Shown here: positions 1-64,000 of the stretch, one piece after another | Layout of the letters: each line of letters begins with the position of its first letter | Numbering within the stretch: the first letter of the stretch is position 1 | Source: Larkinella terrae | GTDB lineage: Bacteria; Bacteroidota; Bacteroidia; Cytophagales; Spirosomataceae | Assembly (NCBI RefSeq): GCF_009668025.1 | Contig: NZ_WJXZ01000002.1 | Location: 503,216 to 567,215, forward strand | Length of the DNA: 64,000 nucleotides | Direction of reading: 5' to 3' | Position numbers and translations under genes: made by a program | The notes under the pieces: model-generated | What the model was told of the DNA's origin: nothing | The model's database searches: none | The model's input: only the letters and a program-made list of their open reading frames with translations

Positions 1-907
1 TTTGGTAAGCGTCTGCTTGTTGTTCCAGTTCGTGCTGATCAAGGAATTTGTGAATGTAATTCCAACCTTCCCACTGCTCAGGGTATCTGGTTAAATATTG
101 CCAGAATGAATCATACAGGTGTTGAAGGCTCAGTTGACAGTACGTGTCGCGGTCACAACCAGCTTCCGGAACAATAGGATCGAGAAAGGATAATACGTTA
201 TTCAAGTTTCTTTCCCGATAACTAATAACCGGTACAATGGGGGTTTTAGTTAAGTAAGACAGGAAACCAACACCTTTGCGGGCCCACACATTTTTGGCCC
301 CGAAGCGCACCTGGACCTCTTTATCTTCCTGACGGTTGATGCCCGTAGTACTGGTCACACCGTCGATAAAGATTACCAGGGAAGTTCCTGCCCGCAGTTC
401 ACGGATGACCTGAAGAGTCGATGATGTCTCTTCTGCATCCAGAATCTGGAATGAATTGGTTAGTTTGTGTTTTTTCTGAAGACCTCTGATTGTTGACCAG
501 ATGTCTTTGCCCTGTTCCTGATAGGTACCCCTGCTGACCAGTAATGCAAGATCAATGCCGTTGCGATAAAGATAACTGGTCAGCAGGCGGTAGGAGCCCA
601 AATGAAAAGTACAATAAATATTGGGTTGCTGGCTGTTAATCAGCTTCCGAATAGGTCCTTTTGTTTGAATCAGGTCGTTAGCAGTCAAAAATTGCTGGTC
701 GAAGGTGGTATAAACCTGCTGCAGTAGCAATTTCTGAAAAAGGTCCTCGTGCTTCTCTATCGGAATCTCAGGCAGAATGTTCTGGACACTAGCCGAGAAC
801 GTCGTAAATTTAAAGAGGTACCCTTTTTCTTTCCGAAGATCCAGAGATTCGAATTGTTGACGACAACGATCGAGTTCTCTCTGATATTGATGCACGAAGT
901 TGCTCAT
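1..907 (-). CDS. LABLAT/HtrB-like acyltransferase, partial (cut by left edge)
   Basis: The frame is open from an ATG at 907 to the window edge (302 residues visible), so the C-terminus is missing. It resembles the lysophospholipid (lipid A) acyltransferase superfamily: a histidine motif HLGSYRLL at residues 102-109, a strand GTSLVIFIDG at 174-183, a block RFGAKNVWARKGVGF at 201-215 followed by TPIVPVISY, and YPEQWEGWNYIHKF at 275-288, which matches the conserved PEQW..HRRFK end of LpxL/HtrB proteins. Two features differ from LpxL: there is no N-terminal membrane anchor, and the H-x4-[D/E] catalytic motif reads H-x4-R (R107). The gene starts 11 nt after the stop of a 64-residue peptide gene, so the two are probably one operon. 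I infer acyl transfer to that peptide or another soluble substrate; a lipid substrate remains possible. The family call is fairly secure, the substrate is unknown. Confidence 0.72.
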   Translation of the reverse strand, partial: MSNFVHQYQRELDRCRQQFESLDLRKEKGYLFKFTTFSASVQNILPEIPIEKHEDLFQKLLLQQVYTTFDQQFLTANDLIQTKGPIRKLINSQQPNIYCTFHLGSYRLLTSYLYRNGIDLALLVSRGTYQEQGKDIWSTIRGLQKKHKLTNSFQILDAEETSSTLQVIRELRAGTSLVIFIDGVTSTTGINRQEDKEVQVRFGAKNVWARKGVGFLSYLTKTPIVPVISYRERNLNNVLSFLDPIVPEAGCDRDTYCQLSLQHLYDSFWQYLTRYPEQWEGWNYIHKFLDQHELEQQADAYQ

Positions 908-918
908 AGAAATAGGAA

Positions 919-1113
919 TTAAGAAAGTGCCAGTTTATCCTGTGCGTTTGGTTGCAAACCGGTGAAAGAAGGCATCCATTCACAGCAAACCTGATCAGCT
1001 TTGCCAGCCAAACGGATGCTGTTACCGGTTTCGTTTTTAGCGATTACATTCAAATTGAGAGTAGCAGAGTTCAATAATTGCTTAGCGGAATTGATAACAA
1101 ATGACTTTTTCAT
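919..1113 (-). CDS. 64-residue peptide, possible precursor for acyltransferase
   Basis: Short gene of unknown function with ATG at 1113. The N-terminal half is leader-like (MKKSFVINSAKQLLNSATLN, amphipathic and Lys/Asn rich); the C-terminal half has a Cys-Cys pair, a Trp and Pro residues (QVCCEWMPSFTGLQP). There is no Sec signal peptide and no double-glycine cleavage site. It lies 11 nt upstream of the LABLAT-like gene on the same strand and is divergent from a membrane LytTR regulator. That arrangement resembles a ribosomal peptide precursor next to its modifying enzyme. That role is an inference from position and composition only; it could also be a small regulator or structural peptide. 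Confidence 0.5.
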   Translation of the reverse strand: MKKSFVINSAKQLLNSATLNLNVIAKNETGNSIRLAGKADQVCCEWMPSFTGLQPNAQDKLALS

Positions 1114-1269
1114 GGCGATAGATGCTGTTAGAGTTGATTAATTTTTCAGTCATCAATCGATCATTTTTGCCCGGGATTATTTTGCCGATTGACTGTGACA
1201 AAATTACCGGGCGAGAGGAGGGAAAAGAATGGAAGATTTTGTCTAAAATATTATGCAGCTTTAGTAACT

Positions 1270-1293
1270 AATTACTATTTTTGATTAGTAATT
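1270..1293. promoter_or_regulatory. Dyad in divergent promoter region (AATTACTA / TAGTAATT)
   Basis: An 8-bp inverted repeat (1270-1277 and 1286-1293) with an 8-nt spacer, preceded by a related TTAGTAACTA word at 1261-1270. It lies in the 219-bp gap between the peptide gene (minus) and the LytTR regulator (plus), 40 bp before the latter's ATG. It is a candidate operator for autoregulation; no direct evidence. Confidence 0.3.
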
Positions 1294-1332
1294 TAGCACA
1301 GTGCAAGAAGTAGAATAAGAATTAGAGCCGCA

Positions 1333-2313
1333 ATGACCGAAGTATTGCTAAATCTGAAATACATCAGAAGGCCTTTCAAGAGTCTGAGTATTTTGCTATT
1401 GGCGTTCTTCACATTTCAAGCTTTCAGTTGGGTGTTCGCTTTCGAAAAGAACGTAAGTATCGTAAAGAAGCTCGGTGGACCTCTCAGTTACATCTGGATT
1501 CTATTTCGGGGAGGAATTCTGCCGGAAATCTCGACCCTGATCATTGTGCTCATGCTTCTTAATATTTACCATGAAGCCTGTCAGATCAAACGTCTTGAAC
1601 TAACCCCTAAAAAAGTGTTCAAATATGAGGTAAAAATTTTACCCGTAATGCTGATCGCTTTTTTTCTCTTTAATCCGGTTACGCAAACCGTCCGCTATTT
1701 ACTGGTCGAATTCCCAAGTTATAACCTTGATCTTTATCTGGAGAACTATCTCCAGGGCACTTATAATATCAAACTTTATTTTACGTATTTGATTCCGGTC
1801 CTGATTATGGGGTATGGTGCGGTCAATGGATCATTGATTATTGACATCATGGAACAGCGCCGACAGCAAAAGAAACGCACGAGCGAAACACCAGATCCAT
1901 TTCAGTCGTTAACTCCCCAGCCCGGTGCTTACCTGACGCACCTGAAAGTCAAAAGCACGTATGGCGAAACCATCATTGCCGTTCAGGACTGTTTCTGGTT
2001 CGAAACCGAAGATCGGTATTACTATGCCATACACCCGACCGGCCGGTTCGCGATCACCAAAACCATGAACGAATTGGAAGCGGAACTGAACCCGGAGATG
2101 TTTTTCCGGACCAAACGTAATTGTATTATCAATCTCAGTTTTGTTGCAAGTTACTCTTATTGGGAAAACGGCAAATATAGCATTCGGATGCAAACACCCA
2201 ATAACGACGAGACGGATATGCCCCGGGCTCGTCTTCAGGATTTTAAAAACCGCCTTGTACGCTTCTCCGCTCAGGAAGTGGAGTACCTTCCTCCCAAGAG
2301 CGAGATTATTTAA
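1333..2313 (+). CDS. Membrane-anchored LytTR transcription regulator
   Basis: 326 residues. The N-terminal half has about four hydrophobic segments (roughly 17-37, 66-80, 102-118, 147-172), followed by a charged linker at 174-195 and a LytTR DNA-binding domain at about 205-308 (TYGETIIAVQDCFWFE, then FFRTKRNCIINLSFV, the usual core of the fold). There is no receiver domain, so it differs from AgrA/LytR response regulators and resembles one-component membrane LytTR proteins, which are common in Bacteroidota. It probably senses a membrane or extracellular cue directly and binds promoters while anchored. It is divergent from the peptide/acyltransferase pair and may control it. The ATG at 1333 gives a full first membrane segment and is kept. 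Confidence 0.8.
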   Translation: MTEVLLNLKYIRRPFKSLSILLLAFFTFQAFSWVFAFEKNVSIVKKLGGPLSYIWILFRGGILPEISTLIIVLMLLNIYHEACQIKRLELTPKKVFKYEVKILPVMLIAFFLFNPVTQTVRYLLVEFPSYNLDLYLENYLQGTYNIKLYFTYLIPVLIMGYGAVNGSLIIDIMEQRRQQKKRTSETPDPFQSLTPQPGAYLTHLKVKSTYGETIIAVQDCFWFETEDRYYYAIHPTGRFAITKTMNELEAELNPEMFFRTKRNCIINLSFVASYSYWENGKYSIRMQTPNNDETDMPRARLQDFKNRLVRFSAQEVEYLPPKSEII

Positions 2314-2366
2314 TGCATGCTTACGAACCAGAGGGTATTCTGGATTTCGTAAGTACATAAATTTAT

Positions 2367-3065
2367 TCACAGGTATTCTTTCACGGAAATACCGTATCGG
2401 GCCAGATTCCGGCAACTTCCCAATTCCAGTTTTTGCGCAATGTTGGTTTTGTGATTCGCGAGCGTCCGGTAACTGATGTGTAGCTGATCCGCAATTTCGT
2501 ACCCGGTAGCTCCCTGTGCAATCAACTTAAGTATTTCAAGCTCTCTGCCCGTCAAACGCCCCAGTTGCTGTTTCGTTTCGTCGGACATGACGTTCATTCC
2601 GTAATTTTTCAGCAAAAGTAAAAAACCGGGGCTATAATAATAACCGCCATTGCTGATGGTCTGAAAACATTTGTATAATTCATCCAGGCCGTCGTTGGCA
2701 TACAGAAAACCGTAGAAGCCCTGCTGCATCGCGTTCGCGACCAGTTTCAGATCCGGTTTGCTGGTATACAGAATAAATTTGGTTCGCTGATTATCACTGC
2801 GGGCCTGTTGCACAATATCAACACTTCGCCGACCGGAAATCTCTGATTCCAGGATGACACATTGTGGTTGTTTAACCCGAATCTGCTGAAGCGTATCTTC
2901 CATTTCAATCGCTTTCCCAACTACGTTGTACCCTTGTGCTTTGAGTAACTGGCAAAGAACTTCACAATTGAATAGTTCGGCCTGGGCTACCAAGATAGAA
3001 AAGTCCTTTCGTCGGAGGGAAAACGAAGAGCCGGACGGTTCCGGTTTTGAATTGTTGTTGTTCAT
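2367..3065 (-). CDS. LuxR/NarL-type regulator with degenerate receiver
   Basis: 232 residues: a receiver-like domain at about 22-140 and a LuxR-type helix-turn-helix at about 170-220 (LTGRELEILKLIAQGATGYE then IADQLHISYRTLANHKTNI). The receiver lacks the normal phosphorylation site: the strand that should end in Asp reads CVILE with Glu at 73, and the N-terminal acidic pair is A27-Q28 after the strand SILV. The conserved Thr/Ser and Lys region (YTSKPD) is kept. By family knowledge it should act as an atypical, phosphorylation-independent regulator, perhaps locked by the Glu. It is convergent with the LytTR gene and divergent from the IS630-type gene. No cognate kinase is adjacent. Confidence 0.82.
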   Translation of the reverse strand: MNNNNSKPEPSGSSFSLRRKDFSILVAQAELFNCEVLCQLLKAQGYNVVGKAIEMEDTLQQIRVKQPQCVILESEISGRRSVDIVQQARSDNQRTKFILYTSKPDLKLVANAMQQGFYGFLYANDGLDELYKCFQTISNGGYYYSPGFLLLLKNYGMNVMSDETKQQLGRLTGRELEILKLIAQGATGYEIADQLHISYRTLANHKTNIAQKLELGSCRNLARYGISVKEYL

Positions 3066-3144
3066 GTTTAAGCGATAGTAACCTGGCGTTCGAAACTACA
3101 ATTTAATTATCCAATGTGATTTGTTAAGCGAATCGAAATCAATA

Positions 3145-3285
3145 CTTTTCTGTGTGAAATAACCAAAATTCTAATCAGTTCATTTCAAACCTTCGACGTA
3201 GTTGATGCAATCAAAAAAGGCGTGGGAAGCGACAGAGAGAATCAACCGCTATATACTGCAAATTTGGTTATTTCACGCGAAAAAG
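3145..3285. mobile_element. MITE-like inverted-repeat element flanked by TA
   Basis: About 26-bp imperfect terminal inverted repeats (about 22 of 26 positions match; core GTGAAATAACCAAA perfect over 14 bp at 3154-3167 and 3263-3276) bound a 141-bp stretch. Both outer ends abut TA (3143-3144 and 3286-3287), the target duplication of IS630/Tc1-mariner elements. It contains no gene. It ends 101 bp before an IS630-type DNA-binding-domain gene. It may be a miniature element or an operator pair for a neighbouring regulator. Confidence 0.4.
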
Positions 3286-3386
3286 TAGTTATTCCGTACG
3301 AAATGACTTTTTTACTTGAAATTGATGCTGTAGTTTTCACTTGTAATTCAACGAAAACAAGGACTGAACTACTAATATCAATAACA

Positions 3387-3812
3387 ATGCGGAACGTTAA
3401 AAATTTATCTGGACAAGAAGTCGAACAACTCCGTCAAACGATTCGTGAGAGCCAAAGTAACGTTTTAAAGAAACGTTGCCAGTGTGTACTCTATAGCTAC
3501 TACGGTTTAACCGTTAGCGAATTGATGGATATGTTCGCTGTAGATCGTCGCAGTATCTACAACTGGATGAATCGTTGGCAGGAAGACGGTGTTCAGGGTT
3601 TGCAGGATAAACCAGGTCGTGGTTTGAAACCGAAACTGAATCCGGACGATCAACAACACGTTGAAAAAGTGATCCAGGCGATGATGTCATTCCCCAAAGA
3701 ACCACGTCAGGCACTGCAACAAATCAACCACCAACTGCCAAAGCCTGTTAGTCAGGATACGCTGCGTCGGTTTGTAAAGAAAATATCGAGAATAGACAGC
3801 ATGGCTGCCTGA
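3387..3812 (+). CDS. IS630-type transposase N-terminal (helix-turn-helix) domain, no nuclease domain
   Basis: 141 residues from the ATG at 3387; a GTG 165 nt upstream is in frame but that extension lies partly inside the inverted-repeat element and is not protein-like. It carries a paired helix-turn-helix of the IS630 family (LTVSELMDMFAVDRRSIYNW then MNRWQEDGVQGLQDKPGRG, and SQDTLRRFVKK near the end). In intact IS630 transposases the DDE nuclease follows LRRxLKK; here the frame ends 9 residues later (ISRIDSMAA) and no DDE-coding frame follows before the terminator at 3825. It is either an IS remnant or a domesticated DNA-binding protein. The clean stop, its own terminator and the intact reading frame lean toward retention as a gene, but this is uncertain. 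Confidence 0.6.
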   Translation: MRNVKNLSGQEVEQLRQTIRESQSNVLKKRCQCVLYSYYGLTVSELMDMFAVDRRSIYNWMNRWQEDGVQGLQDKPGRGLKPKLNPDDQQHVEKVIQAMMSFPKEPRQALQQINHQLPKPVSQDTLRRFVKKISRIDSMAA

Positions 3813-3824
3813 TAATCAATATAT

Positions 3825-3876
3825 AAAGTGAATAGTCAATGATGAAGGTAGGGTTTCATCGTTGATTATTCACTTT
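3825..3876. terminator. Bidirectional hairpin terminator
   Basis: Inverted repeat of about 22 bp with a few mismatches (AAAGTGAATAGTCAATGATG pairing with CATCGTTGATTATTCACTTT) and a T-run on the plus side. It sits between the convergent IS630-type gene and dnaG. Confidence 0.7.
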
Positions 3877-3878
3877 TT

Positions 3879-5870
3879 TTACGATACCACAGTTCCCAAC
3901 AGCCGGCCGATTTCGATGTCTACTTTCTTGTAGTGCATGAATTCTACCATGAGTCGGTCGCTTTCCGCTGGATCAGTCGCCTGACCAATCAGCTGCTTTA
4001 TTTCCCGCATTCGTTGCTCCGCAACCAATTTCTTCAATCGCAGAATATTGGCAAAAGCCGCATCGGCTAGTTTATCAACTTCCGTTGGTACGTAAATCTC
4101 GTGTTTTTGCCAGTTTTCGCTGAGCTGATGCCGAACCGTAACGAGGCCAATCGTCTGATGCTGGTACTCTGGATTTCTGTGCTGTAAAAAATAATCCGCC
4201 GTTCGAATCTCACTGGCCAGAAAGCCTTCCCGGATCTCCCGCAGCATTTCATTGAAAACCGGGGTCACAAATTCCATCGAACCCAGTTCGCTCAGCATAT
4301 AATGACAGACCGAAATATCGGGTTCCAGTTCGTGCGCGCCGTAATTAACCAGTAAGCGAACGCATTCTTCTTCCTGGATGGAGAGCTGCGAGCGGTTTTG
4401 TGATTTTAGCGGATCGGCAACCCGGCGGTTGACGGGCGCTTCTTCTACCGAAAAATCATGTAAAATCTCCGTCAACTCTTCCGGCATCGGGGGCGGGCCC
4501 AGGCTGGCCGACCGGTTTGAGGCAGCGGTTTTGTCCTGTTGTTGCTTGAGCTGTTGTTTCTGCTGATTGAGAACCATCCGGTTACTTTCCGAAATCAGCG
4601 TTTGCTCATCGACCTGGAGCTGGCGGGCGGTTTTTTGAAAGAAGACCTGCCGTTTGATCGGATCCGGTATTTTCGAAATGCTTTGAATGACCTCCGAAAT
4701 AATTTCCGCCCGTTTGAACGGATTATCTCCCGCATCCTTCAGCAGCATGTCGGTTTTGAACGTAATAAAATCGTTGGAGTGCTGGCTCAGGTATTTTTTA
4801 AAAGCTTCAGCGCCCACTTTCCGGACGTAGCTGTCGGGATCATCACCGTCGGGGAAGGTTGCCACGCTGACATTCAGGCCCTCTTCCAGCACCATATCCA
4901 GGCCGCGCAGGGCGGCTTTGATACCGGCTGCATCGCCGTCGTACAAAATGGTGACGTTCTGCGTGAAGCGGCTGATCAGACGTATTTGCTCGATCGTCAG
5001 CGAGGTTCCCGACGAAGCAACGACATTTTTGATCCCGGCCTGGTGCAGCGACAGCACATCCGTATAGCCCTCCGTCAGGTAACAGACGTCGTCTTGCCGG
5101 ATGGCGTTCTTTGCCTGAAAAATACCGTAAAGAACCTGGCTTTTGTGGTAAACTTCGGTCTCCGGCGAGTTAATGTACTTGGGTTGATTTTTATCCGTTT
5201 TCAGAATCCGCGCGCCGAAGGCAATCACCCGGCCCGAAACATTATGAATGGGAAAAATCACCCGGCCCCGAAACCGGTCGTAGGTCTTGCCACCATCTTT
5301 TGATAGAATCAAACCGGCTTTTTCCAGCAGCTCCGGGCGATAGCCCCGGCGGCTGGCTTCCTGCAGAAGGGCATCCCACTGGTCGGAACTGTAACCCAAT
5401 TCAAAGGATTGAACGGTGTTATCCAGAAAACCGCGTTCGCGGAAATAACTCAGACCAATGCTCTGGCCTTCGTCGGACGTCAATAAGTGAGAATGGTAAA
5501 AATCTTTGGCAAAATTCAGGACAATGAACAGACTTTCGCGCTCATTCTGCTTGATCAGTTCGTCGGGCGTTAGCTGCTCCTCCGCTACCTCGATGCCGTA
5601 TTTCTTGGCTAAATGACGCAGGGCTTCCGGATAACCGATATTCTCGATGTCCATCACAAACCGCACGGGATCACCCGCCTTGCCGCAGCCAAAACATTTG
5701 TAGATCTGACGCGCGGGCGAAACATTGAACGACGGCGTCTTTTCGTTATGGAATGGGCAGCAGGCAATCCAGTTTTGACCACGCTTTTTGAGCGAGACAT
5801 AGTCACTGACGACGTCGATAATATCCGCTGATTGGCGGATGCGGTCGATGGTTTCCTCCGGAATACGCAT
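3879..5870 (-). CDS. dnaG: DNA primase
   Basis: 663 residues, normal length for the family. It makes RNA primers for lagging-strand synthesis with the replicative helicase DnaB. The N-terminal zinc-binding domain has ligands C38, H41, C59 and C62 (CPFH...CFGC). The TOPRIM catalytic core carries TEGYTDV (266-272), YDGDAAG (310-316) and DGDDPD (341-346), the metal-binding acidic motifs. The C-terminal ~150 residues are the helicase-interaction region. The usual rpsU-dnaG-rpoD operon of proteobacteria is not seen; the gene stands alone, convergent with the IS630-type gene. The ATG at 5870 gives the canonical IPEETIDRIR start. Confidence 0.97.
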   Translation of the reverse strand: MRIPEETIDRIRQSADIIDVVSDYVSLKKRGQNWIACCPFHNEKTPSFNVSPARQIYKCFGCGKAGDPVRFVMDIENIGYPEALRHLAKKYGIEVAEEQLTPDELIKQNERESLFIVLNFAKDFYHSHLLTSDEGQSIGLSYFRERGFLDNTVQSFELGYSSDQWDALLQEASRRGYRPELLEKAGLILSKDGGKTYDRFRGRVIFPIHNVSGRVIAFGARILKTDKNQPKYINSPETEVYHKSQVLYGIFQAKNAIRQDDVCYLTEGYTDVLSLHQAGIKNVVASSGTSLTIEQIRLISRFTQNVTILYDGDAAGIKAALRGLDMVLEEGLNVSVATFPDGDDPDSYVRKVGAEAFKKYLSQHSNDFITFKTDMLLKDAGDNPFKRAEIISEVIQSISKIPDPIKRQVFFQKTARQLQVDEQTLISESNRMVLNQQKQQLKQQQDKTAASNRSASLGPPPMPEELTEILHDFSVEEAPVNRRVADPLKSQNRSQLSIQEEECVRLLVNYGAHELEPDISVCHYMLSELGSMEFVTPVFNEMLREIREGFLASEIRTADYFLQHRNPEYQHQTIGLVTVRHQLSENWQKHEIYVPTEVDKLADAAFANILRLKKLVAEQRMREIKQLIGQATDPAESDRLMVEFMHYKKVDIEIGRLLGTVVS

Positions 5871-7467: not shown

Positions 7468-7470
7468 ATT

Positions 7471-13836: not shown

Positions 13837-15360
13837 CTACAAACGGCCAATCCACTGCAAAATCCACTCCGGTTTGAAAAACAGAATCAAAACCGGTACG
13901 GTCAGCACGGTGGCTAAAACGAGTTGCGGGCGGCTAAATCGAGTGTCTGATAAATGGGCGTCGGAAGCGGGTCGGAAGTAGAGCAGGAAAGGAATCCGGA
14001 GGTAATAAAATAAGGACACAACGGCATTCAGTAAACCGATACCAAACAGCGCCAGCAGCCAGGGATTATTGTCGGTCTGGTAGGCTTCCAGCAGGGCCGA
14101 AAACGCCAGGAGCTTAGCGGTAAATCCCACCGTTGGGGGTAGTCCCGTCAGGGCGATCATAACCGCTGTGAGGGCAGCGCTGAGGAGTGGTTGGCTATAG
14201 CCTAATCCACTGAAATTCTGTATAGTTAAACTGCTATTTTGCTGCGCCAGCAGATCAATCAGCAGAAAGGCCGCCATGTTGATAAACACATACGTGGTGA
14301 TGTAAAACGTAGCCGCTTCAAAACCGGTTTCGTTGAAAGCCATAACCCCCACCAGCAGAAAACCGGCGTGGGCGATGGACGAGTACGCCAGCAGTCGTTT
14401 CGCATCGGTTTGCCAGAGTGCCGAGAGGTTGCCCAGCGTAATACTGGCTAGCGAAATAACCGCTATTGGTGTCTGAAAAATACCCGGAAGGGCGGTTAGC
14501 ACTCGCATCAATATAAGCAATGCTGCGGCTTTGGGAGCTATTGAAAAAAAGGCGACTACGGGCGTTGGAGCCGCTTCGTAGGTGTCGGGCGTCCAGACGT
14601 GAAACGGCACGAGCGACAGTTTGAAAAGAATTCCGGCCAAAGTCAGAAAACCGGCGACGTACACCACAAATGAATCATTTTGAGTCAGTTGTCCCATGGA
14701 TTCCGACAGCGTGAGTGTTCCGGTCAATCCGTAGAGCAATGACATGCCGTATAACATGATGGCCGAACTGACAGCTCCAAAAAGCAGGTATTTCAAACCG
14801 CCTTCCGATGCCTTGCGGCTGGTCGAAAGCGCCGTCAGTAAATACGAACTGATGGAAACCAGCTCAATACTGAGATAAATCGTCAGCAGATTGATCGACA
14901 TCGTCATCAGATACAGGCCGAGGAGCATCCCGAGCAGGATCGGAAGCCAGTCGAGGGGCAGCTCGTTCCGGGGGCGGTCCACCACCCAGCCGTGCAGAAT
15001 CGCAAAAAAAGCCGCCAGGGTAACCACCAGTTTGTAGAAAACCGCCTGGTTATCAAGCAATAATACCGAACTGAAAAGAAAGCCCTTTTCCTGAGTCCAT
15101 TGGCCAACAACCAGCCATCCCGATGCGATTACCGCTGTCAGTGAAAGGGCGTACAGCATCGAGCGGTTTTTGAAATTCGGAAAGGAATGGGCTACGGTTG
15201 CGCCTGATTCGGACGAAAAACCGGCTAACTGCGCTTTGGGGCGGGGAGCAAGCAACAGATCGGCAATGACGACAAGCACAATGGCGAAAACCAGCGCCAG
15301 TTCCGGCCAGAAACCGGACAAGCTCCGTAAACTATCATTCAGTTGATCAATGAGTTGCAA
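13837..15360 (-). CDS. nuoN: NADH-quinone oxidoreductase subunit N
   Basis: 507 residues with about 14 membrane helices; antiporter-like subunit of complex I that takes part in proton pumping. Recognised by the Mrp/NuoN core (SIELVSISSYLLTAL, then FKLSLVPFHVWTPDTYEAAP with the conserved Lys, and the KRLLAYSSIAHAGFLLVG segment). In most genomes nuoN is the last gene of a nuoA-N operon. Here no other nuo gene is adjacent: upstream on the minus strand there is only a plus-strand unrelated gene. The protein looks intact, so the rest of complex I is probably encoded elsewhere. Confidence 0.93.
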   Translation of the reverse strand: MQLIDQLNDSLRSLSGFWPELALVFAIVLVVIADLLLAPRPKAQLAGFSSESGATVAHSFPNFKNRSMLYALSLTAVIASGWLVVGQWTQEKGFLFSSVLLLDNQAVFYKLVVTLAAFFAILHGWVVDRPRNELPLDWLPILLGMLLGLYLMTMSINLLTIYLSIELVSISSYLLTALSTSRKASEGGLKYLLFGAVSSAIMLYGMSLLYGLTGTLTLSESMGQLTQNDSFVVYVAGFLTLAGILFKLSLVPFHVWTPDTYEAAPTPVVAFFSIAPKAAALLILMRVLTALPGIFQTPIAVISLASITLGNLSALWQTDAKRLLAYSSIAHAGFLLVGVMAFNETGFEAATFYITTYVFINMAAFLLIDLLAQQNSSLTIQNFSGLGYSQPLLSAALTAVMIALTGLPPTVGFTAKLLAFSALLEAYQTDNNPWLLALFGIGLLNAVVSLFYYLRIPFLLYFRPASDAHLSDTRFSRPQLVLATVLTVPVLILFFKPEWILQWIGRL

Positions 15361-15495: not shown

Positions 15496-16161
15496 ATGAA
15501 AGCAATGCTGATTTTGGGCCTGCTCGCATTCGGGCTGACCACCGCAACCCGCGCCCAGGGCGTTTTTCTGACCGACGTCAACGGGCAGGTGCTGCGGGCT
15601 AATAAATACGTAGACGTGCAGGGGTCGCCGTATCTGAATGAAGCCTGGAAGGTCGGTTCGGTTACGGCGGCCAATAATAAGTCGTATCCAAACCTGAAAG
15701 TTCGTTACGACGCCCACGCGGGCGAACTCGAATATCTGCAGAACGAACAGCCGTACCGCCTGAGTCCGTCAGCCATCAGGGAATTCAGGATTACCGACGA
15801 CAAAGAGCTGGTGTTCCGCAACGGTTTTGCTGCGGTGAACAACAATACACCGACAACTTTTTACCAGGTTCTGGTCGACGGGCCAACCAAGTTGCTGAAG
15901 CAGTTGAAAGTCAACATCATCGAAAACAAACCGTTCAATTCGGCAACGGTAACCAGAGAGTTCCAGAAGCAGGAACTGTATTTCATTGCCAAACCGGATG
16001 GAGCCCTTCAGCGGATCCAGAAAAACAAAAAATCGGTGCTGGCCGCGTTAACGGACCAGAAAGAGCGCGTCGAAAAGTTCATCAAAGAGCAGGATCTGAA
16101 CCTAAGCGACGAAACAAACCTGATCGCGCTGCTGGAGAGTTACAATACTTCTGACCATTGA
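15496..16161 (+). CDS. Secreted protein of unknown function
   Basis: 221 residues from ATG 15496; the upstream in-frame ATG at 15439 would precede the signal peptide by 19 residues. Signal peptide (MKAMLILGLLAFGLTTATRAQ), then a mixed alpha/beta region and a Lys/Glu-rich helical C-terminus (about 175-215, ALTDQKERVEKFIKEQDLNL) likely to form a helix or coiled coil. No recognised domain. It faces terC and ends in a nested hairpin region. Confidence 0.7.
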   Translation: MKAMLILGLLAFGLTTATRAQGVFLTDVNGQVLRANKYVDVQGSPYLNEAWKVGSVTAANNKSYPNLKVRYDAHAGELEYLQNEQPYRLSPSAIREFRITDDKELVFRNGFAAVNNNTPTTFYQVLVDGPTKLLKQLKVNIIENKPFNSATVTREFQKQELYFIAKPDGALQRIQKNKKSVLAALTDQKERVEKFIKEQDLNLSDETNLIALLESYNTSDH

Positions 16162-16246
16162 CGATTGCTGATTGACCATTGATATAGCCGGTTGTCGATT
16201 ATCAATGGTCGATTATCAATGGTCGGTGGTCAATCGTCAATGGTCA
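16152..16246. terminator. Nested inverted repeats between convergent genes
   Basis: Outer stem 16152-16167 / 16231-16246 (TGACCATTGACGATTG and its complement, 16 bp perfect); inner stem 16174-16184 / 16214-16224 (GACCATTGATA). The words GACCATTGA and TCAATGGTC recur at least five times, so several alternative hairpins are possible. It probably terminates both converging genes. Confidence 0.6.
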
Positions 16247-23535: not shown

Positions 23536-24521
23536 TTTTCCAGAGTTAGAAAACTCAGTTGTTCACCCACCGTCTACAAACCCGGAAGCTCGATCTGATG
23601 AATAAAAACTCGTGAGTTAATTGAGTACGTTCTTGTTCATCCAATTTCAATGCCATTTTGTGTGGTTTATAGTTTCATTCATAAAATTTTATAGAAAAGG
23701 CAAATTATTTATACCAGTTGTCAAAATTGCATACCATAAAATCACTCTACCAGTTTTCCCGAAATTTATAATTCTTTGGCACAGTAATTGTCAGCCCCGA
23801 ATTCCATCACAACAGCTAATTGATCGATTACTAAAAAGGTAAAATTTAACTTAAAAAATTGCTTGAGTAATTATCCGGGAATAGTGAAATCTAAAACCGG
23901 TTTTCTTTTATTTTATAGAAAAAGAGACGCAATTTAATCAATCACAGGTGGGCCGGAATCGACGCTATCTACCCAATTCTGCGGCCCGCGATCACAGCCC
24001 GATTGGCGGCCAACCAGCAACATTACTTTTTTCCTGCACCCGAAATAGTTTGATTTCCCGCCGTTGGAGAGCTTTTTTGCGTTATAAAATATAAATTAAC
24101 AATGAAATAGTACTAATTATTTACAGAACTACCCGGTTTTTACGATTTAATAGCTCGGAGTAAATAAAAGGCAGTAAAGAGAAGCTACTGGCCAGGATTG
24201 GCAATTTTTAAATTCTATTGAACCATCAGGATGTTATTCAACCAATAGGAATGCACAAACGACCGAAATTAATCGTTATGCAAAACCCCTTGCAAAGTGA
24301 GTTGATAAATTCCGGTTTGAACTCCATAATCGGGATAAATCAATAAAATTGATTATTGCTTATACAACTAAATAAAAGATTATTATTTTATTACATCAGG
24401 CTGTGCAAATTGGATCAGGGGAGAGGGATAAAAAGAGTGAATTCCTACGATAAGATTATCTATATAACGTATATAGGTGAACTATTTCACTTACTCGTGC
24501 GCTTGATCTGGGAAAAGTATA
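23536..24521. other. About 1 kb AT-rich noncoding region
   Basis: No supported gene. Noted elements: a 13-bp direct repeat ATTTTATAGAAAA at 23686-23698 and 23910-23922, and a perfect 12-bp palindrome AAAACCGGTTTT at 23893-23904. Frames at 23621-23842 and 24356-24574 encode low-complexity basic peptides and were not accepted. Confidence 0.5.
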
Positions 24522-25641: not shown

Positions 25642-25903
25642 CGTAGTGTATTTGTTATTTTAGGCAAAAGTAAAGCCGCAGGAAGCGGCCGTCCAGGCGA
25701 AAGCGATACTGAGCGGCATTGGGTAAATAAGCTGGGGGAAAAACCGGATAATTGCCGGAACGGAAAAACCGCTGGTTGCCGGGATGGCCGGAAAATCGTT
25801 TCACCTGATCCCGAACCGTTTCAAAAAATCGGTTGATGTATTTTACAATGAAAACCTTTTCCTATTTTTGATTAAGAGTGCGCCAACCTTAACCAGAATT
25901 TCC

Positions 25904-27058
25904 ATGAAACGTCTTGTTCCTTCAAATCTGCTGCTGATAGCAGCTTTCCTGCTGGGTGTTCGGACATTTGCGCAAACGCCCCCGCGACAACCCACGCCCA
26001 ACGACACCCTCAACTCGCCCAAAGTGCTGACTAACAACCGGGTGGCTATTCAGATTTACGCACCCAAAGCCAGCGAGGTGATCGTGGCCGGTGATTTTCT
26101 GGGCGGTGGAAAACCGCTGAATCTCGCCAAGGACGCCAACGGCGTCTGGTCGGTGACGGTGGGCCCGCTCAAACCGGACTATTATACGTATACGCTGATG
26201 GTCGACGGCGTTCGGACCATGGACCCGAAAAATCCGGTGATCAAACAGGGCATCAGCAGCCTGGAAAATGTGATGGCGCTGCCCGGTTCTGAAACGGTTT
26301 TTGAAGACAACCGCCCGGTTCCGCACGGCGAACTGCGGCAGGTCTGGTACCAGTCCAATACGCTGGGCATGGCGCGCCGGATGCACGTTTATACGCCCCC
26401 CGGTTATGATAAGGGCAACACGAAATACCCGGTTTTTTACCTGCTGCACGGCGGGGGCGATGACGATTCGGGCTGGCCAACGGTGGGCCGCGCCGGTTTT
26501 ATTCTGGATAATCTGCTGGCGGCCGGGCAGGCCAAACCCATGATTGTGGTGATGCCCAACGGCAGCATGCCGCTTCCGCCCTCGTCAGGAATGCCCAATC
26601 CGGCGGTGATGACGCAGATGCGGACGTTGTTTGCCAACGAACTGCTGAAAGAAGTGATGCCGTATGTCGAGAAAAATTACCGGACGCAGGCCAATCGCGA
26701 GAACCGGGCCATTGCCGGGTTGTCAATGGGCGGTTTTCAGACGCTGGACCTGACGCTGACCCGGCCGGATCTGTTCAATTATGTCGGCGTATTCAGCTCC
26801 GGTTTTTTCGGGGCCACCATCGACGAGGCCGAAACCAAATACGCCAGCGTGCTGAATGACCCCGGTTTTAACAAAAACAAGAAGCTGTTCTGGATTGAAA
26901 TTGGCAAGGATGATTTTGTGATGGATGCCAACAAAAAAACGATGGCGCTGCTCGATAAACACCAGATCAAGTACCAGTATAAGGAAACGGCGGGCGGCCA
27001 CACCTGGATCAACTGGCGGCAATATCTCAACGAATACGTGCCGCTGCTTTTCCGGTAG
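25904..27058 (+). CDS. Secreted esterase (Fae/XynZ-like) with N-terminal CBM48-like domain
   Basis: 384 residues from ATG 25904, which starts a clear signal peptide ([16 protein letters not shown]); an in-frame start at 25784 is rejected. Residues about 45-120 form an E-set/CBM48-like domain ([19 protein letters not shown]). The alpha/beta-hydrolase part has an oxyanion segment [17 protein letters not shown], nucleophile GLSMGG and a catalytic His in [12 protein letters not shown]. These features match the esterase D/feruloyl esterase group that removes acyl groups from plant polysaccharides. TATTTTTG at 25863-25870 fits a -7 box. Followed 69 nt later by a second esterase. Confidence 0.85.
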
Positions 27059-27127: not shown

Positions 27128-28669
27128 GTGAGTCGTATCTGGGCCTTTTTTCTGACTTTTTTGCTTTCTTCTTATGCCATCGGGCAGTCGCTGATCGTCA
27201 AAACCGAAAGCGGCCGCGTGGAAGGCATGGCCAACAAAACCGGTGATATCCGGATTTTTAAGGGCATTCCGTTTGCGGCTCCGCCGGTGGGAAACCTGCG
27301 CTGGAAAGCCCCGCAGCCGGTGTCCGCCTGGTCGGGTGTTAAAAAATGTGTGGCATTTGGACCCAGCCCGATGCAGGCCAAACCCGCGCCCTTTATGTAC
27401 TGGTCGTCGGAATTCCTGATTCCCGAACAACCCATCAGCGAAGATTGCCTTTACCTGAATGTATGGACGGGCGCCCGTTCGGCGGCTGAGAAGCGACCGG
27501 TTTTCGTCTACATTTACGGGGGCGGTTTTCGGAGCGGGGGCGCGGGCTGCGCGATTTACGACGGCGAAGCGATGGCGAAAAAAGGGGTGGTTTTTGTGAC
27601 GATCAACTACCGCGTCGGCGTTTTCGGTTTTCTGGCCCACCCCGAACTTTCGAAGGAATCGGGATATAAGGCTTCCGGTAATTACGCGCTGCTGGACATG
27701 ATTGCGGCCCTGAAATGGGTGCAGAAAAACGCGGCCGCCTTCGGGGGCGATCCGAAAAATGTGACCATTGCCGGACAGTCGGCGGGGGCGTTTGCGGTTA
27801 ATTTCCTGGCGGCTTCGCCCCTGGCTAAAGGGCTTTTTCACCGGGCCATTGCCGAGAGTGGCGGGAGCTTTCTATCGAGTCCGGCGCGCCCCCGACTGAC
27901 GTTGCAAGACGCTGAACAATTAGGGGTTGATTTTGCCGGAAAGCTCAATGCGGCTTCGCTGAGCGACCTGCGTGCCAAATCGGCAGAAGAAATCCTGAAG
28001 GCTTCCGGCGGTTTAAATGGCCCCGTCGTCGACGGTTATTTATTGCCCGAAGGCATTTATGAAATCTACGCCAAATCGCGCCAGAACGATGTTTCGCTGC
28101 TGCTGGGCTGGAACGGCGATGATAAAGTAATGGGCGCACCAGTCAAAGCGGAGGTCTTTCGCGAGCAGATCAGAAAGCGGTTTGGCAATCAGGCCGACGC
28201 TTACTTTTCGGTTTATCCGGCCCAAACCGAGGAAGAAAGCGCCCAGTCGCAGGGAAACAGCAACCGGGATGAAAGCTTTGGTATTCAGGATTATACGTGG
28301 GCCAAAATGCAAACCAAAACCGGAAAATCACCGGTTTTTCTGTACAATTTTACGCGCAAGGTGCCCGCCCACACGCCCCAGACACAGTTTGGCGCGTTCC
28401 ACACCGGCGAGGTGCCGTATGCGTACAACAACCTCCAGACCGTGGATCGTCCGTGGGAGGCCATTGACCGGCAGATTGCCGACGTCATGTCGTCGTACTG
28501 GGTCAATTTTGCCAAAACCGGTAATCCCAACGGCCCAAATCTGCCGGTCTGGTCGGCCTACACCCGCGAGTCGGAAAACACCCAGATCATCGACAAGACG
28601 ATTGAAAACCGCCCTTTACCGAACAAAGACAAACTGAGGTTCTGGGAGAACTATTACGGGCAAAAGTGA
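27128..28669 (+). CDS. Type B carboxylesterase, secreted
   Basis: 513 residues; GTG start at 27128 is followed directly by a signal peptide (FFLTFLLSSYAIGQ). Type-B carboxylesterase/cholinesterase family: FKGIPFAAPPVGNLRW near the N-terminus, SEDCLYLNVW, oxyanion GGGF, nucleophile GQSAGAF, and late FHTGEVPY with the catalytic His. Substrates are esters, probably aromatic or sugar esters given the adjacent feruloyl-esterase-like gene. No sign of truncation. Confidence 0.88.
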   Translation: MSRIWAFFLTFLLSSYAIGQSLIVKTESGRVEGMANKTGDIRIFKGIPFAAPPVGNLRWKAPQPVSAWSGVKKCVAFGPSPMQAKPAPFMYWSSEFLIPEQPISEDCLYLNVWTGARSAAEKRPVFVYIYGGGFRSGGAGCAIYDGEAMAKKGVVFVTINYRVGVFGFLAHPELSKESGYKASGNYALLDMIAALKWVQKNAAAFGGDPKNVTIAGQSAGAFAVNFLAASPLAKGLFHRAIAESGGSFLSSPARPRLTLQDAEQLGVDFAGKLNAASLSDLRAKSAEEILKASGGLNGPVVDGYLLPEGIYEIYAKSRQNDVSLLLGWNGDDKVMGAPVKAEVFREQIRKRFGNQADAYFSVYPAQTEEESAQSQGNSNRDESFGIQDYTWAKMQTKTGKSPVFLYNFTRKVPAHTPQTQFGAFHTGEVPYAYNNLQTVDRPWEAIDRQIADVMSSYWVNFAKTGNPNGPNLPVWSAYTRESENTQIIDKTIENRPLPNKDKLRFWENYYGQK

Positions 28670-32045: not shown

Positions 32046-32084
32046 CTGTCGAAAAACCGGTGGAAGAAACCGGTTTTTCGACAG
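32046..32084. repeat. 15-bp perfect hairpin built from AAAACCGG/CCGGTTTT
   Basis: Arms 32046-32060 (CTGTCGAAAAACCGG) and 32070-32084, loop 9 nt. It lies in the divergent promoter region between the PAS kinase and the DAC-like gene, so it could be an operator or a leader hairpin rather than a terminator. Confidence 0.6.
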
Positions 32085-48034: not shown

Positions 48035-48055
48035 TTGCCCCCAACCCCCTGAAGG
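48035..48055. repeat. Half copy of REP-like element
   Basis: The word TTGCCCCCAACCCCCTGAAGG matches one arm of the full element at 48190-48257 and 51335-51404, but the complementary arm is missing. It lies just upstream of the sulfatase relic. Confidence 0.6.
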
Positions 48056-59268: not shown

Positions 59269-59537
59269 TCACTACTCCGAGTTTCACCCACCACGAAGTA
59301 AGAATACTTTTTTTATATGTAACTATTTTTACCGTACTTTTTACTTAACGTAGTTGAAGCCGAATGCAGTTGGCCAGCGGCAGCACCGGCAAGTGGGTTA
59401 CTAGTGATAAAATTTTCATCGAAGCATCAAGTTATTTTCGGTGAATACCCGGAAGCAACGTACATTGACCAAATGTTGCCGCAAAAACGAACCGAAACCT
59501 GATTCGCCCCATGCCCGGATTGAAACTAAGTTTGCCG

Positions 59538-60215: not shown

Positions 60216-60234
60216 GCCATCTACGCATTAAAAA

Positions 60235-61206
60235 CTAGAAAGACCCGGGCGCAGTGACTTCGAATTCTTTTGATGGTTTTCGAACTCCTTTTTCCTTCAG
60301 CATCCGGCTTATTTGATTCACCAGATCGATCGACGCGTCGATCTCCGCTTTGCGAATGGCGACGCTTTCGATATTGAAACCAAACGGGATGGAGCGTTCC
60401 TGGCAGATCGTGGTCAGCGCGGAGGCAATGTCGAAGCAAATCTTCACCGACTTTTCCAGCATATTCTCCGATCCGAGCAGATCGGCTTTCACGTCGTCCG
60501 GTACGTGAATCCCCAGCCACTCCATAAACTGCAGCGTTTTGGCCGATCCGCAGGCGGTAATCGTGAAAATGAGGGTCGGCGGGGGGACGTCCTGCCGTTT
60601 ACAATTCTGGGCCAGATCTTCGATAACCTGCCGGGCGTAGTCCAGATTAAAGACACATTGCGAAATAAAATACGAAACCCCGCAGCTCATTTTATCCAGC
60701 ATCCGGACTTCCTCATCCTTCAGTACGTGATGCCTTTCCGGGATGGTTACCGCGCCGATTACGGAGGAATTCTGGTGCTTGCTCCAGAGTTTATAGGCTT
60801 CCGGCAGGCTCGTTTTAACCGGAAAATCCGGGGCCGGAACACCAACAAAAACCGGATAAAAACGGTTTTTGTACAGTTCTTCCAGCCAGTTGGTCAGCTC
60901 ATCGGGCGAAAATTTGCCCGCTGGGCGGTAGATTATTTTCGGGACTGGTAAGGTGCCCAGATAACCGGAGGCAAAAACGAGCGGGTCCAGCGCATTGATA
61001 AACGGGAATGGCCGTTCTTCATTGGTCCGGGCCGACTCATCCTGAACATCATACACCACCAGGGCGTCGATATCCAGACCAGCCAGTCGCTCGATTGTTT
61101 TTTGGGCAATTTCGGCAATGCGTTCAGGTGCGGTACTGGTTTTAGGCGGTGTAATGCCGTAAAGCAGCACCCCTGATTCACCGGATTTGATCTTTTCTAC
61201 AAACAT
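60235..61206 (-). CDS. Methylenetetrahydrofolate-reductase-like protein
   Basis: 323 residues from ATG 61206; the in-frame ATG at 61284 adds 26 poorly conserved residues. The pattern LLYGITPPKTSTAPERIAEI, YDVQDESARTNEERPFPFI and an FTITACGSAKTLQFMEWLGI late segment fits a shorter, atypical branch of the MTHFR/FAD-linked reductase family rather than MetF. It could act in one-carbon metabolism, but the exact reaction is uncertain. The gene is alone on the minus strand here. Confidence 0.68.
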   Translation of the reverse strand: MFVEKIKSGESGVLLYGITPPKTSTAPERIAEIAQKTIERLAGLDIDALVVYDVQDESARTNEERPFPFINALDPLVFASGYLGTLPVPKIIYRPAGKFSPDELTNWLEELYKNRFYPVFVGVPAPDFPVKTSLPEAYKLWSKHQNSSVIGAVTIPERHHVLKDEEVRMLDKMSCGVSYFISQCVFNLDYARQVIEDLAQNCKRQDVPPPTLIFTITACGSAKTLQFMEWLGIHVPDDVKADLLGSENMLEKSVKICFDIASALTTICQERSIPFGFNIESVAIRKAEIDASIDLVNQISRMLKEKGVRKPSKEFEVTAPGSF

Positions 61207-61402
61207 GATGATACTTAAAGTCGAGCTAGTGATTTCGGGAAATAGGCCGCCCGATCCGAAAACCGTTGCTCTTTTGGCGGGCAATTTACTTCCTTTTTTT
61301 GAAAGAAAATCCGGCCAACCGCTTCTTGCCGGGTTGATTCGGTCATTTTCAGCGAAGAACGGCGTTCATTCCGGAACTGGCTGGGCCGTTACCCCGTAAC
61401 CA

Positions 61403-62308
61403 TCAGCGCGGCAGCATGGGAAAAAGCCGCCTGATTTCTTCCGGGTTCGGCTGCCGGCCGTACTCGCAAATTTCGAAGACTTCCACCCATTTGATCCGGG
61501 CCGCCTTTTCCGGGCCGTACCATTTTTCGATGGATACCTTAATTTCCGGCGTCGGGGAAAACCGCCGTTCCATTGCGGTCTGCAGCCATTTTTTTCGCTC
61601 CACAAGGTCTTTGGGCACATTAGCCAGGTCCTGGCGGGTCCAGGGCAGCCACTCGTAGAATTGGGAGACGTGGGCATCGAGGCCGTCCACTTTTTTAGCC
61701 AGGGTTTCGGTAATATCGACGGCGATGTCGGGGCGGAACGGATTAGGGCGCTGAAAACCGTCGCGGAAATAGAGAAAAACCGGGTTTTTAACGAGTGGCG
61801 GCACACTGCTCAGGACGTTGGGCACGATAACCAGGTAGGCCGCATCCTGCACCACGACGCCCGTATTCCGGTGATCCGGATGATAATCGTTGGTGCGGGG
61901 CGCGATCACCAGATCCGCCTTCCACTCCCGGATTTTGCGAATAACCGCCAGCCGGTTTTCCAGCGTCGGCATCAGTTCGCCGTCGTGATTGTCCAGTACG
62001 TCGTAGGTAATGCCCAGCCGTCTGGCCACTTCCTGGGTTTCTTGGTACCGTCTTTTGGCCAGTTCGCCCCCGCCAATGTCCTGATGCCCGGCGTCCCCGT
62101 TGGTCATCGACACAAATTTTACCTTGTGCCCCATCGACGAATAAATGGAGGCAATTCCGCCCGCGCCCAGGTCGCAATCGTCGGGATGGGCGCCAAAAAC
62201 AATGATGCGCAGTGGCGTCGCCGGTGTTTGGGCAAACGTGAAAGTAGCTCCCAGGCACAGGGCGAGCAGCAGGGCAAATCGCAGTTTTAAAGTAATCCGA
62301 AAGTGCAT
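61403..62308 (-). CDS. Secreted PIG-L (LmbE-type) deacetylase
   Basis: 301 residues with signal peptide (ALCLGATFTFAQ). The zinc/catalytic motif GAHPDDCDLGAGG begins at residue 39, and a second motif NDYHPDHRNTG is present. The family removes N-acetyl groups from glucosamine-type sugars. The extracytoplasmic form is common in Bacteroidota. Confidence 0.9.
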   Translation of the reverse strand: MHFRITLKLRFALLLALCLGATFTFAQTPATPLRIIVFGAHPDDCDLGAGGIASIYSSMGHKVKFVSMTNGDAGHQDIGGGELAKRRYQETQEVARRLGITYDVLDNHDGELMPTLENRLAVIRKIREWKADLVIAPRTNDYHPDHRNTGVVVQDAAYLVIVPNVLSSVPPLVKNPVFLYFRDGFQRPNPFRPDIAVDITETLAKKVDGLDAHVSQFYEWLPWTRQDLANVPKDLVERKKWLQTAMERRFSPTPEIKVSIEKWYGPEKAARIKWVEVFEICEYGRQPNPEEIRRLFPMLPR

Positions 62309-62900
62309 ACAATAAACAGTTAAGGTTTTCTTCAGTTCAGTTCAAATCCGGCGGTTTTCGACCCGGTTTTGATTCGGAAATCTGACGGGTTCAAAAACGA
62401 TCGTTTAGCCGAATTTTTTAAAACAGCTAAACCGCCGACCATAAAATAGAGAAATGGGGACGAAATTCCAATCTGTGGAAGTGCACAGCTGGTTTGCTCA
62501 CTCGCTACATTCTTTGAGCAAAATGCGGTGAAGCAATTCGTAACCGAAACAGACTGATAAAGTAAGTTCCCTTCCCGGTTTCCTGTATTCGCTGTTTTCT
62601 TCGCCCCGGTTGCCTGCCAGAATATCCGATCGACCGGCTTCGAATAGCGGATTGATTGGCCCTATTCAGCGTGGGCGTCAACGAAAATTCGATTTCGGGA
62701 ACGGGGCCCGGCCTGTGGTCAGGCTGATTTCAAACCCTGTAATTTTGAATAAAAACAGTCACCAACGGTTTTTTACAGGAGCTTCGCCCGGGTCGCCGAA
62801 CCAGTGAACCGGCCTGGTCAATGGAAGAAGTGTCAGGCAAAACATTTTGCATAATCAAAAGGTCATAAGAGGCAATTTTAACCAGTATCAAACCCGGTAT
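62309..62900. other. 590-bp noncoding gap
   Basis: Contains the promoters of the two divergent genes on either side. No gene, RNA or strong hairpin recognised; a 65-codon plus frame at 62610 was not accepted. Confidence 0.5.
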
Positions 62901-64000
62901 ATGCTGACCAAGCTTTCAGTGCCTCTGGTGCTTTCCGAAAGTAGTTCTTTACGTTACTTTGTTTTCTTTTACCTGTATGTAATGCAGGGCATTCCGGCCG
63001 GTTTTTCGCTAACCGCCCTGGCCAATTATTTAACGGCAGAGGGGGTGAAACCTTCGGTCATCGGCTCATTTGCGGCCGTCATCGGGTTGCCCTGGGCATT
63101 TCAGTTCATCTGGGGGCCATTGATCGACCGCTACCAAAGCTCATCCCTGGGACGCCGAAAGCCCTGGGTGATTGGCACGCAGTTTTTGGCATTTCTGGCT
63201 TCTTTGGGAATACTTCTGATTGACAACCCGCTAACTGAGCTTAAATCACTGGTTTTCTTCTTTCTGATCCACAGTATTTTTGCCGCAATTCAGGATGCGA
63301 GTGTCGATGCCATGGCCATTACGGTTATTCCGGCCCACGAACGGGGCCGGGTCAACGCGTTCATGAGAGCCGGTTTCCTGGTGGGTACCGGGGTGGGTGC
63401 TGCCGTTTTTTCGCAGATTCTGCGTCAGTTCGGGTTTTCAGAAGCGGCCCTTATCCAAAGTCTTTGCCTAATGACATTATGGTTGCTGACATGTTTTGTA
63501 CGAGAGCGCCCTGAAGATCGGTTACTCCCTTTTCTGAATCGCCGACCGCCGGTATTGGCCCGGACAACTAAAAAAAAGGCCCAACCGGATCGTGATTTCA
63601 AATGGTTGTTTACGGAACTGTTTACCGGTATTTTTGCGCCCCAAAACCTTTTGCTTTTTGCTGCGGTGGTAACCGCGTACGTAAGCATCAGCCTGTTTTT
63701 GAGGGCCTACAATTACCACCTGATCCAGAAAATGGGCTGGGCCGACACGTCACTTTCGCTACTTACGGGTACCTACGGCATGCTTGTTGCAGCGGCAACG
63801 GCGCTTTTCGGAGGTTATGTGGCGGATCGAATTGGCCCTTCTCGTCTGCTCATCCTAGTTTTGGGTCTGGTGGCAGCCTATCTGCTCGGCTTTAACCTGT
63901 TGGAAGCCACCTGGACCAATCAAACCGTTGCCCGGTCGGGTCTGGTTGCGTTGTATTTTATGGATCCGGCTGTTAGTGTAGCAGCAATGCCCCTGCTGAT
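62901..64000 (+). CDS. MFS transporter, AmpG-like, partial (cut by right edge)
   Basis: Open from ATG 62901 to the window end (366 codons). Multiple membrane helices; the loop after helix two reads FIWGPLIDRYQSSSLGRRKPWV, the MFS cytoplasmic motif as in AmpG (muropeptide permease) proteins, and DASVDAMAITVIP is the AmpG-type helix-four region. Substrate may be a muropeptide or an oligosaccharide. The C-terminal helices lie outside the window. Confidence 0.85.
   Translation, partial: MLTKLSVPLVLSESSSLRYFVFFYLYVMQGIPAGFSLTALANYLTAEGVKPSVIGSFAAVIGLPWAFQFIWGPLIDRYQSSSLGRRKPWVIGTQFLAFLASLGILLIDNPLTELKSLVFFFLIHSIFAAIQDASVDAMAITVIPAHERGRVNAFMRAGFLVGTGVGAAVFSQILRQFGFSEAALIQSLCLMTLWLLTCFVRERPEDRLLPFLNRRPPVLARTTKKKAQPDRDFKWLFTELFTGIFAPQNLLLFAAVVTAYVSISLFLRAYNYHLIQKMGWADTSLSLLTGTYGMLVAAATALFGGYVADRIGPSRLLILVLGLVAAYLLGFNLLEATWTNQTVARSGLVALYFMDPAVSVAAMPLL

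Follow-up and report, generated by a model that had tools for sequence, protein, structure and literature searches.

AAACCG, a highly iterated word in the genome of Larkinella terrae and its genus, is probably kept by selection-like maintenance

A stretch of 64,000 nucleotides from Larkinella terrae (assembly GCF_009668025.1, contig NZ_WJXZ01000002.1, positions 503,216 to 567,215 of the forward strand; hereafter the window) raises the question of why one octamer, AAAACCGG/CCGGTTTT, should recur so often in a bacterial genome, and what keeps it there. Exact matches on both strands numbered 80 (39 plus, 41 minus) and were dispersed over positions 1 to 64,000, while 100 dinucleotide shuffles of the window averaged 6.73 and never exceeded 12. 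A preliminary description of this DNA had counted 38 and 40 sites against about 2 expected; the over-representation stands, the tally was off by two, and the expectation reflects base composition only, rising to 6.7 when dinucleotides are kept and to 15.9 for the coding part with codons fixed. Gene calls followed a simple longest-ORF (open reading frame) rule, under which 67 of the 80 sites lie inside ORFs and 13 are not wholly within one ORF.

The repeated unit is shorter than eight bases. Given its own 7-mers, AAAACCGG is expected 75.6 times in the window and seen 80 times, which amounts to no 8-mer excess, and window word counts place the excess in AAACC, AACCG and AAACCG, the last with 340 dispersed copies (165 plus, 175 minus). 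In a 364-kb sample of the window's genome (G000), made up of the window and 15 stretches of 20 kb, AAACCG was found 1,760 times, where dinucleotide composition predicts 411 and an order-2 model 727; set against its 5-mers in G000 it had a z of 10.9 and rank 2 of 2080 hexamers. Because 7-mers reproduce the octamer and 5-mers fail for AAACCG, the octamer was ruled out as the unit, and the excess was assigned to AAACCG with graded flanks. Reproduction of the frequency by a high-order Markov model, which the preliminary description had named as counting against its reading, was seen for the octamer and not for the core. AAACCG is preceded by A in 52% of copies and followed by G or C in 69%, T just upstream is rare, and the best form is aAAACCGg. 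None of its one-mismatch neighbours is exhausted or similarly enriched (0.63–1.36 of the order-2 model in the 364 kb). Extrapolation from 827 kb, with known AAACCG-poor stretches left out, gave about 36,500 copies in G000, a density of 4.66 per kb that puts a copy at every ~215 bp on average.

Spacing of AAACCG was near exponential (mean 204 bp, coefficient of variation (CV) 0.97 in the 364-kb sample), on which ground helical phasing and clustering were rejected, and no 10–11 bp periodicity was evident by eye among close pairs; spacing of the 8-mer AAAACCGG was uneven (CV 1.10). Density along genes was roughly flat, dipping over the first 60 bases to 3.56 per kb, compared with 4.77 per kb. The palindromic form AAACCGGTTT was minor (25 pairs at distance 4 among ~1,760 AAACCG copies). 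Terminator hairpins were rejected as a source: 61.5 kb of intergenic DNA held only 12 AAACCG...CGGTTT pairs, and AAACCG was no denser in convergent gaps than in divergent ones (4.45 and 4.62 per kb).

Codon usage, codon pairs or composition might generate such a word, as the many coding copies and the correlation of AAACCG density with guanine-plus-cytosine (GC) content (r = 0.65, 112 bins of 5 kb) would allow. Synonymous codons were permuted 40 times within each of 415 genes, upon which coding AAACCG reached 828 copies (maximum 880) vs 2,290 real, and coding AAAACCGG reached 106 vs 433; codon use alone thus yields about a third of the coding hexamers and a quarter of the coding octamers, while the control words GCCAAA (1.04x) and CAGCAG (0.97x) barely moved. 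In the 43 genes of the window, the codon shuffle gave 15.9 octamers (SD 2.7) vs 67 seen. Between genes, AAACCG numbered 283 vs 66.5 expected. AAACCG density was 4.2 per kb in intergenic sequence, compared with 4.9 per kb in coding DNA. AAACCG exceeded the codon shuffle 1.6- to 5.6-fold in each of the three codon phases and in both orientations, whereas GCCAAA fell mostly in one phase. The enrichment therefore lies at the DNA level: it holds for either orientation, for every codon phase and for intergenic sequence. On the shuffle, the phases and the intergenic counts, codon use and composition were rejected as the full cause; with the synonymous-site conservation given below, it is extremely unlikely that they generate the word, and codon-pair preference, which stands outside the models used, would not act on intergenic DNA. 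The preliminary description had argued for a DNA-level motif of which codon use was not the whole cause, and the codon shuffle, intergenic copies and synonymous conservation support this; the outcome it had named as counting against its reading, a codon-preserving shuffle that reproduces the frequency, did not occur.

Among the genomes sampled, high AAACCG densities are restricted to one genus. Over the whole of G000 (7.85 Mb, 22 contigs) AAAACCGG occurs 6,616 times vs 828 for the reversed word, and all nine genomes of the window's genus (g1) are enriched, with 1,994–7,115 copies or ~302–868 per Mb (genome sizes rounded). The enrichment is thus genome-wide and genus-wide, and not peculiar to the window as the preliminary description had allowed. 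Outside the genus, 290 genomes of the order were sampled, and all fall short of the genus minimum, the top value being ~267 per Mb (G169, read by eye); outliers relative to the reversed control outside the genus (G172, 903 vs 33; G076, 128 vs 2) involve small numbers or a depleted control. In sampled sequence, AAACCG over dinucleotide expectation stands at 4.1 in G000 and in its sister species G008 and at 2.5–3.4 in five other genus members; in two other genera, one genome each, it stands at 1.5 and 1.85 and ranks 189th and 91st among hexamers. The octamer is still 4.5x in one of these two genomes (G036), on 12 copies. AAAACCGG is also strongly depleted in some genomes of the same order (G009, 15 vs 761 controls; G044, 1 vs 887; G055, 2 vs 445), perhaps owing to restriction of an inner word.

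The few acquired stretches sampled are poor in the word. AAACCG reached just 1.2 per kb in a 15-kb island of G000 (L187, GC 0.51), just 0.6 per kb in a plasmid-like contig of the same genome (L188, contig C2, 16.6 kb, GC 0.455) and zero in a low-GC 5-kb stretch. Because the density is low in the island despite normal GC, AAACCG appears to mark long-resident DNA. AAACCG was not enriched in plasmids of named Spirosoma and Fibrella species, sampled as stretches of 50 kb (1.30, 0.54 and 0.82 per kb); the Spirosoma oryzicola stretch matched genus g18 at 77%, g5 at 76% and g1 at 73% (four of the nine g1 genomes searched). The contig L188 has the look of a mobilisable plasmid, with RepA, MobA/MobL, a resolvase and a double D12 adenine methyltransferase, and it also carries an AlwI-like restriction endonuclease related to N.BspD6I.

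Conservation was measured mainly in a 141-kb alignment of G000 with G008 (~15% diverged; unpolarised substitutions). AAACCG ranked first of 992 hexamers in both directions (464/654, 71%, and 464/665; hexamer mean 0.426, SD 0.083). Within it, 637 of 722 fourfold third bases (88%) were conserved vs 66% for the same codons elsewhere, and its conservation exceeded the class mean in each coding phase and orientation (0.69–0.80 vs 0.42); bases beyond AAACCG were conserved like those around its permutations, at ~0.85 on average. The excess conservation thus includes synonymous sites, and it is accompanied by suppressed loss and raised gain of the word. With a trinucleotide control, loss was 0.21–0.39x at all six positions and gain was raised at five of the six. 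Relative to the average of 899 hexamers, loss was 0.41x and gain 1.65x, the highest gain-to-loss ratio, followed by those of CAGCAG and ATCAGG, and relative to permutations the loss ratio was 0.44 (block-bootstrap interval 0.38–0.50). Change from one-mismatch neighbours to AAACCG was above control in both directions for 15 of 18 neighbours and in at least one direction for every neighbour, some values resting on few events, and gains were raised among transitions and transversions alike. AAACCG beat its permutations in conservation in all 21 species pairs compared, with loss ratios of 0.38–0.79, though the pairs are not independent of one another.

Under pure mutation bias the models predict loss near 1 and gain near 4, and under pure protection gain near 1; scaled selection of ~1.1–1.6 brackets the observed loss and gain and predicts a three- to fivefold abundance. 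As the gain-to-loss quotient is bound to abundance by construction, the split alone is informative, and suppressed loss with raised gain is what selection, or an equivalent drive, predicts. Context-dependent mutation bias by itself could create a word that is genus-wide and present in coding and intergenic DNA; it is made very unlikely by losses cut to ~0.4 of expectation, by gains that are up for transitions and transversions, and by the finding that no neighbour word is drained as donor.

AAACCG is thus probably a DNA-level word held by selection-like maintenance, whatever its reader may be. On this account the genus would have accumulated a highly iterated, non-palindromic word, with weak selection or a selection-like drive acting on each copy; a sequence-specific DNA-reading protein would act at AAACCG, and each copy would add a small benefit. 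Several observations weigh against it. Intergenic conservation of AAACCG is weak (24/48 vs 0.42 for permutations, a small set), gain at position 1 is 0.84x with the trinucleotide control, and three of the 899 hexamers have loss ratios below that of AAACCG, on few events. A like split of gain and loss is seen in CAGCAG (1.91, 0.57) and ATCAGG (1.36, 0.42), where it is taken to be codon-driven, the codon shuffle backing this for CAGCAG only. The reader protein is a postulate, and from these data selection cannot be told apart from biased repair or biased recombination.

One form of biased repair is the ratchet modelled by Elhai for HIP1, in which methylation of the word makes the motif strand the template in mismatch repair and abundance is a functionless by-product. 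In its effect on loss and gain it could look just like selection, and such a model has been published for HIP1 and related words (PMC4390886). The published model saturates near one site per 1000 nt, compared with about one per 215 bp here (PMC4390886). A ratchet of this type also needs a methyltransferase. Of five families searched, PF01555 had no match in G000, and PF00145, PF02086, PF07669 and PF02384 were found in 4, 4, 8 and 9 of the nine genus genomes, respectively; four of the five are thus missing from some of the nine. The conserved PF02384 protein is 84–98% identical among G001, G002, G003, G004 and G006 and finds relatives of just 24–31% identity in the two most enriched genomes, G000 and G008, in a comparison of ten proteins that covered the best loci of these two. 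By presence pattern, none of the five families fits as a core methyltransferase for AAACCG; a methylation-related word, which the preliminary description had listed, is not supported by this presence pattern (specificities were not measured), and the ratchet is an unlikely cause.

HIP1 (GCGATCGC), of the cyanobacterial highly iterated palindromes, resembles AAACCG in being a short, lineage-restricted word of very high genome-wide copy number, and AAACCG shares with it a gross genome-wide over-representation that is not due to codons. For HIP1, both selection and a repair drive have been proposed (PMC4390886). AAACCG differs in being non-palindromic where HIP1 is palindromic, in being almost five times denser than one per 1000 nt, and in that no core methyltransferase was found among the five families searched.

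If AAACCG is held by selection-like maintenance, the best single candidate for its reader would be an AddAB-type helicase-nuclease that takes the word as a Chi-like signal in break repair, a suggestion that is possible but doubtful. Chi and Chi-like words read by RecBCD or AddAB (for example, the 5-nt AGCGG of Bacillus subtilis) are, like AAACCG, short, non-palindromic and taxon-specific. Over-representation in resident and not in acquired DNA, another property of such words, was seen here on few acquired stretches. There is an AddB-like protein of 985 amino acids with a C-terminal PD-(D/E)XK nuclease (PDDEXK_1), the presence of which makes the Chi-like reading possible. Against it, the AddB scores fall far short of the NCBIfam cut-offs (75.7 vs 486.5 bits), and AAACCG leans slightly towards the lagging strand, unlike E. 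coli Chi. The complete genome G001, for which origin and terminus were inferred from GC skew, offered 22 readable stretches; in these, AAACCG numbered 549 on the leading and 618 on the lagging strand (p = 0.046), so that the leading strand carries 53% of the copies as CGGTTT, and the octamer AAAACCGG numbered 72 and 74. If AAACCG is the active strand, polarity of the KOPS or Chi type in the expected direction was not found. E. coli Chi does show polarity (PMC8022716). Of the candidates in the preliminary description, the Chi-like word keeps its AddB-like protein and lacks leading-strand polarity.

Another of those candidates, a KOPS-like word, is not supported, as the expected polarity is absent from the G001 strand counts. 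AAACCG is, like the FtsK-orienting KOPS, short, abundant and non-palindromic; KOPS words are strongly polar, and AAACCG has no strong strand polarity. This lack of polarity, together with near-random spacing (CV 0.97) and similar densities in genes and between them, would suit a sequence-specific nucleoid or chromosome-organising protein that binds AAACCG at intervals of about 200 bp, whichever way the word faces. No such protein was identified, the 10–11 bp spacing was not evident by eye, and we know of no bacterial chromatin protein with so enriched a word; this alternative is rather improbable. Were the genus naturally competent, a DNA uptake sequence would account for a word that is common to the genus and poor in two acquired stretches, and for uptake words a gradual drive has been proposed (PMC1939737). 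With a core word every ~215 bp, the density seems to go far beyond what the tagging of fragments needs, and the uneven 8-mer spacing (CV 1.10) also speaks against uptake, which is decidedly unlikely. The uptake signal and DNA uptake sequences (USS/DUS) of Pasteurellaceae and Neisseriaceae are likewise over-represented, common to congeners and, as AAACCG was in the acquired stretches seen, poor in acquired DNA; AAACCG is much denser, has a shorter core and is without a known receptor.

A second and stronger anomaly in these genomes is the near-absence of CGCCGC and CGCCTC (CGCCKC, equal to GMGGCG). In 1.59 Mb from three genus members (G000, G001 and G008) they occurred 2 and 4 times vs 1,538 and 490 in an order-2 model, and coding DNA held 6 CGCCKC copies vs 1,955 in codon shuffles. 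Other one-mismatch neighbours of CGCCGC and CGCCTC stood at 0.5–1.8 of expectation, so that no single mutational product takes up the lost sites. The window has neither word on either strand, and 38 copies of CTCCGC. CGCCTC was counted over 297 genomes and CGCCGC only in fetched sequence. In g1, CGCCTC was rare in nine of nine genomes (7–73 copies vs ~3,300–4,800 of the reversed control), and it was also rare in g3 (4–30, four of four sampled), g5 (1–205, 27 of 27) and g18 (10–12, two of two), beside control counts of ~1,900–3,500; the remaining 255 of the 297 genomes had CGCCTC-to-control ratios of 0.44 or more, read by eye. CGCCGC was rare in G010 of g3 (2 in 100 kb) and not in G036 (33 in 47 kb). 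In the opposite sense, CTCCGC was near-absent in a genus of another family (g49; G056, G072, G086, G114, G139 and G152), with 5–19 copies vs 345–585 of CGCCTC.

In the plasmid stretches, CGCCGC was present 0 times in Spirosoma oryzicola, 8 times in S. rhododendri and 10 times in Fibrella. The AAACCG-poor island L187 and the contig L188 held no CGCCKC, with AGCCGC, TGCCGC and GGCCGC together at 37 and 46, and the absence of CGCCKC from both suggests a filter at entry. The avoidance may possibly come from a nuclease without self-protection. PacI, an enzyme with a site of 8 bp, offers a parallel. It is cited in PMC3488263 as a restriction enzyme that lacks a partner methylase and comes from a site-free genome. 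For the CGCCKC half alone, a candidate nuclease acting on unprotected sites and kept as a core trait can be put forward tentatively. It is very improbable that both words form a self/non-self code without methylation, in which CGCCKC would have been purged by the nuclease in at least four genera and AAACCG would be a mark, in one genus, spared by a DNA-processing enzyme. In g3, of which one genome was sampled, CGCCKC is lost and AAACCG is not enriched, so a link between the two is not required. Separately, the palindromes GCCGGC, GGATCC, CCATGG, CCGCGG and CCTAGG stood at 0.14–0.23 of expectation in the G000 and G008 samples, a deficit of the kind that Type II restriction avoidance commonly leaves.

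Within the window, individual octamer sites illustrate the settings in which the word is found. A minus-strand gene with a Proton_antipo_M domain (PF00361; nuoN in the preliminary description) at 13837–15360 carries coding copies at 13889, 14320, 14359, 14647 and 15217. On the plus strand, a PF00756 esterase gene (25784–27058) has sites at 26429, 26493, 26799 and 26862, and a PF00135 carboxylesterase gene (27128–28669) at 27236, 27497, 28316, 28331 and 28514. The palindrome AAAACCGGTTTT at 23893–23904 consists of two overlapping sites, and a 16-bp inverted repeat at 32046–32084, with a predicted energy of -26.1 kcal/mol, contains two (32053 and 32070). Positions given earlier for sites in these genes (14320, 14359, 14647, 26429 and 28331), for the palindrome and for the hairpin were all correct. 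Other repeats were also seen. A long imperfect inverted repeat at 16152–16246 lacks AAACCG; a 121-base stretch there is predicted at -52 kcal/mol, and the repeat belongs to a family dispersed in both orientations in G000 and relatives. The short dispersed repeat GCCCCCAACCCC occurs at 48037, 48192, 48244, 51337 and 51391, with two inverted pairs for which hairpin formation is possible.

Among the literature matches listed, no published report of AAACCG or CGCCKC as a genomic word was found, subscription papers being mostly outside the search. The function of iterated words such as HIP1 is argued between selection and repair by-product (PMC4390886). AAACCG adds a denser, non-palindromic case, with no evident core methyltransferase and with high densities in one genus among the sampled genomes. 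Its gradient among species (~302–868 AAAACCGG per Mb) and the availability of alignable sister genomes make models of selection, methylation and mutation separable in living strains. The lineages with Chi named in PMC8022716 include E. coli and relatives, H. influenzae, B. subtilis, L. lactis and S. aureus; if an AddAB-type enzyme does read AAACCG, the word would be a Chi-like signal for a lineage beyond these.

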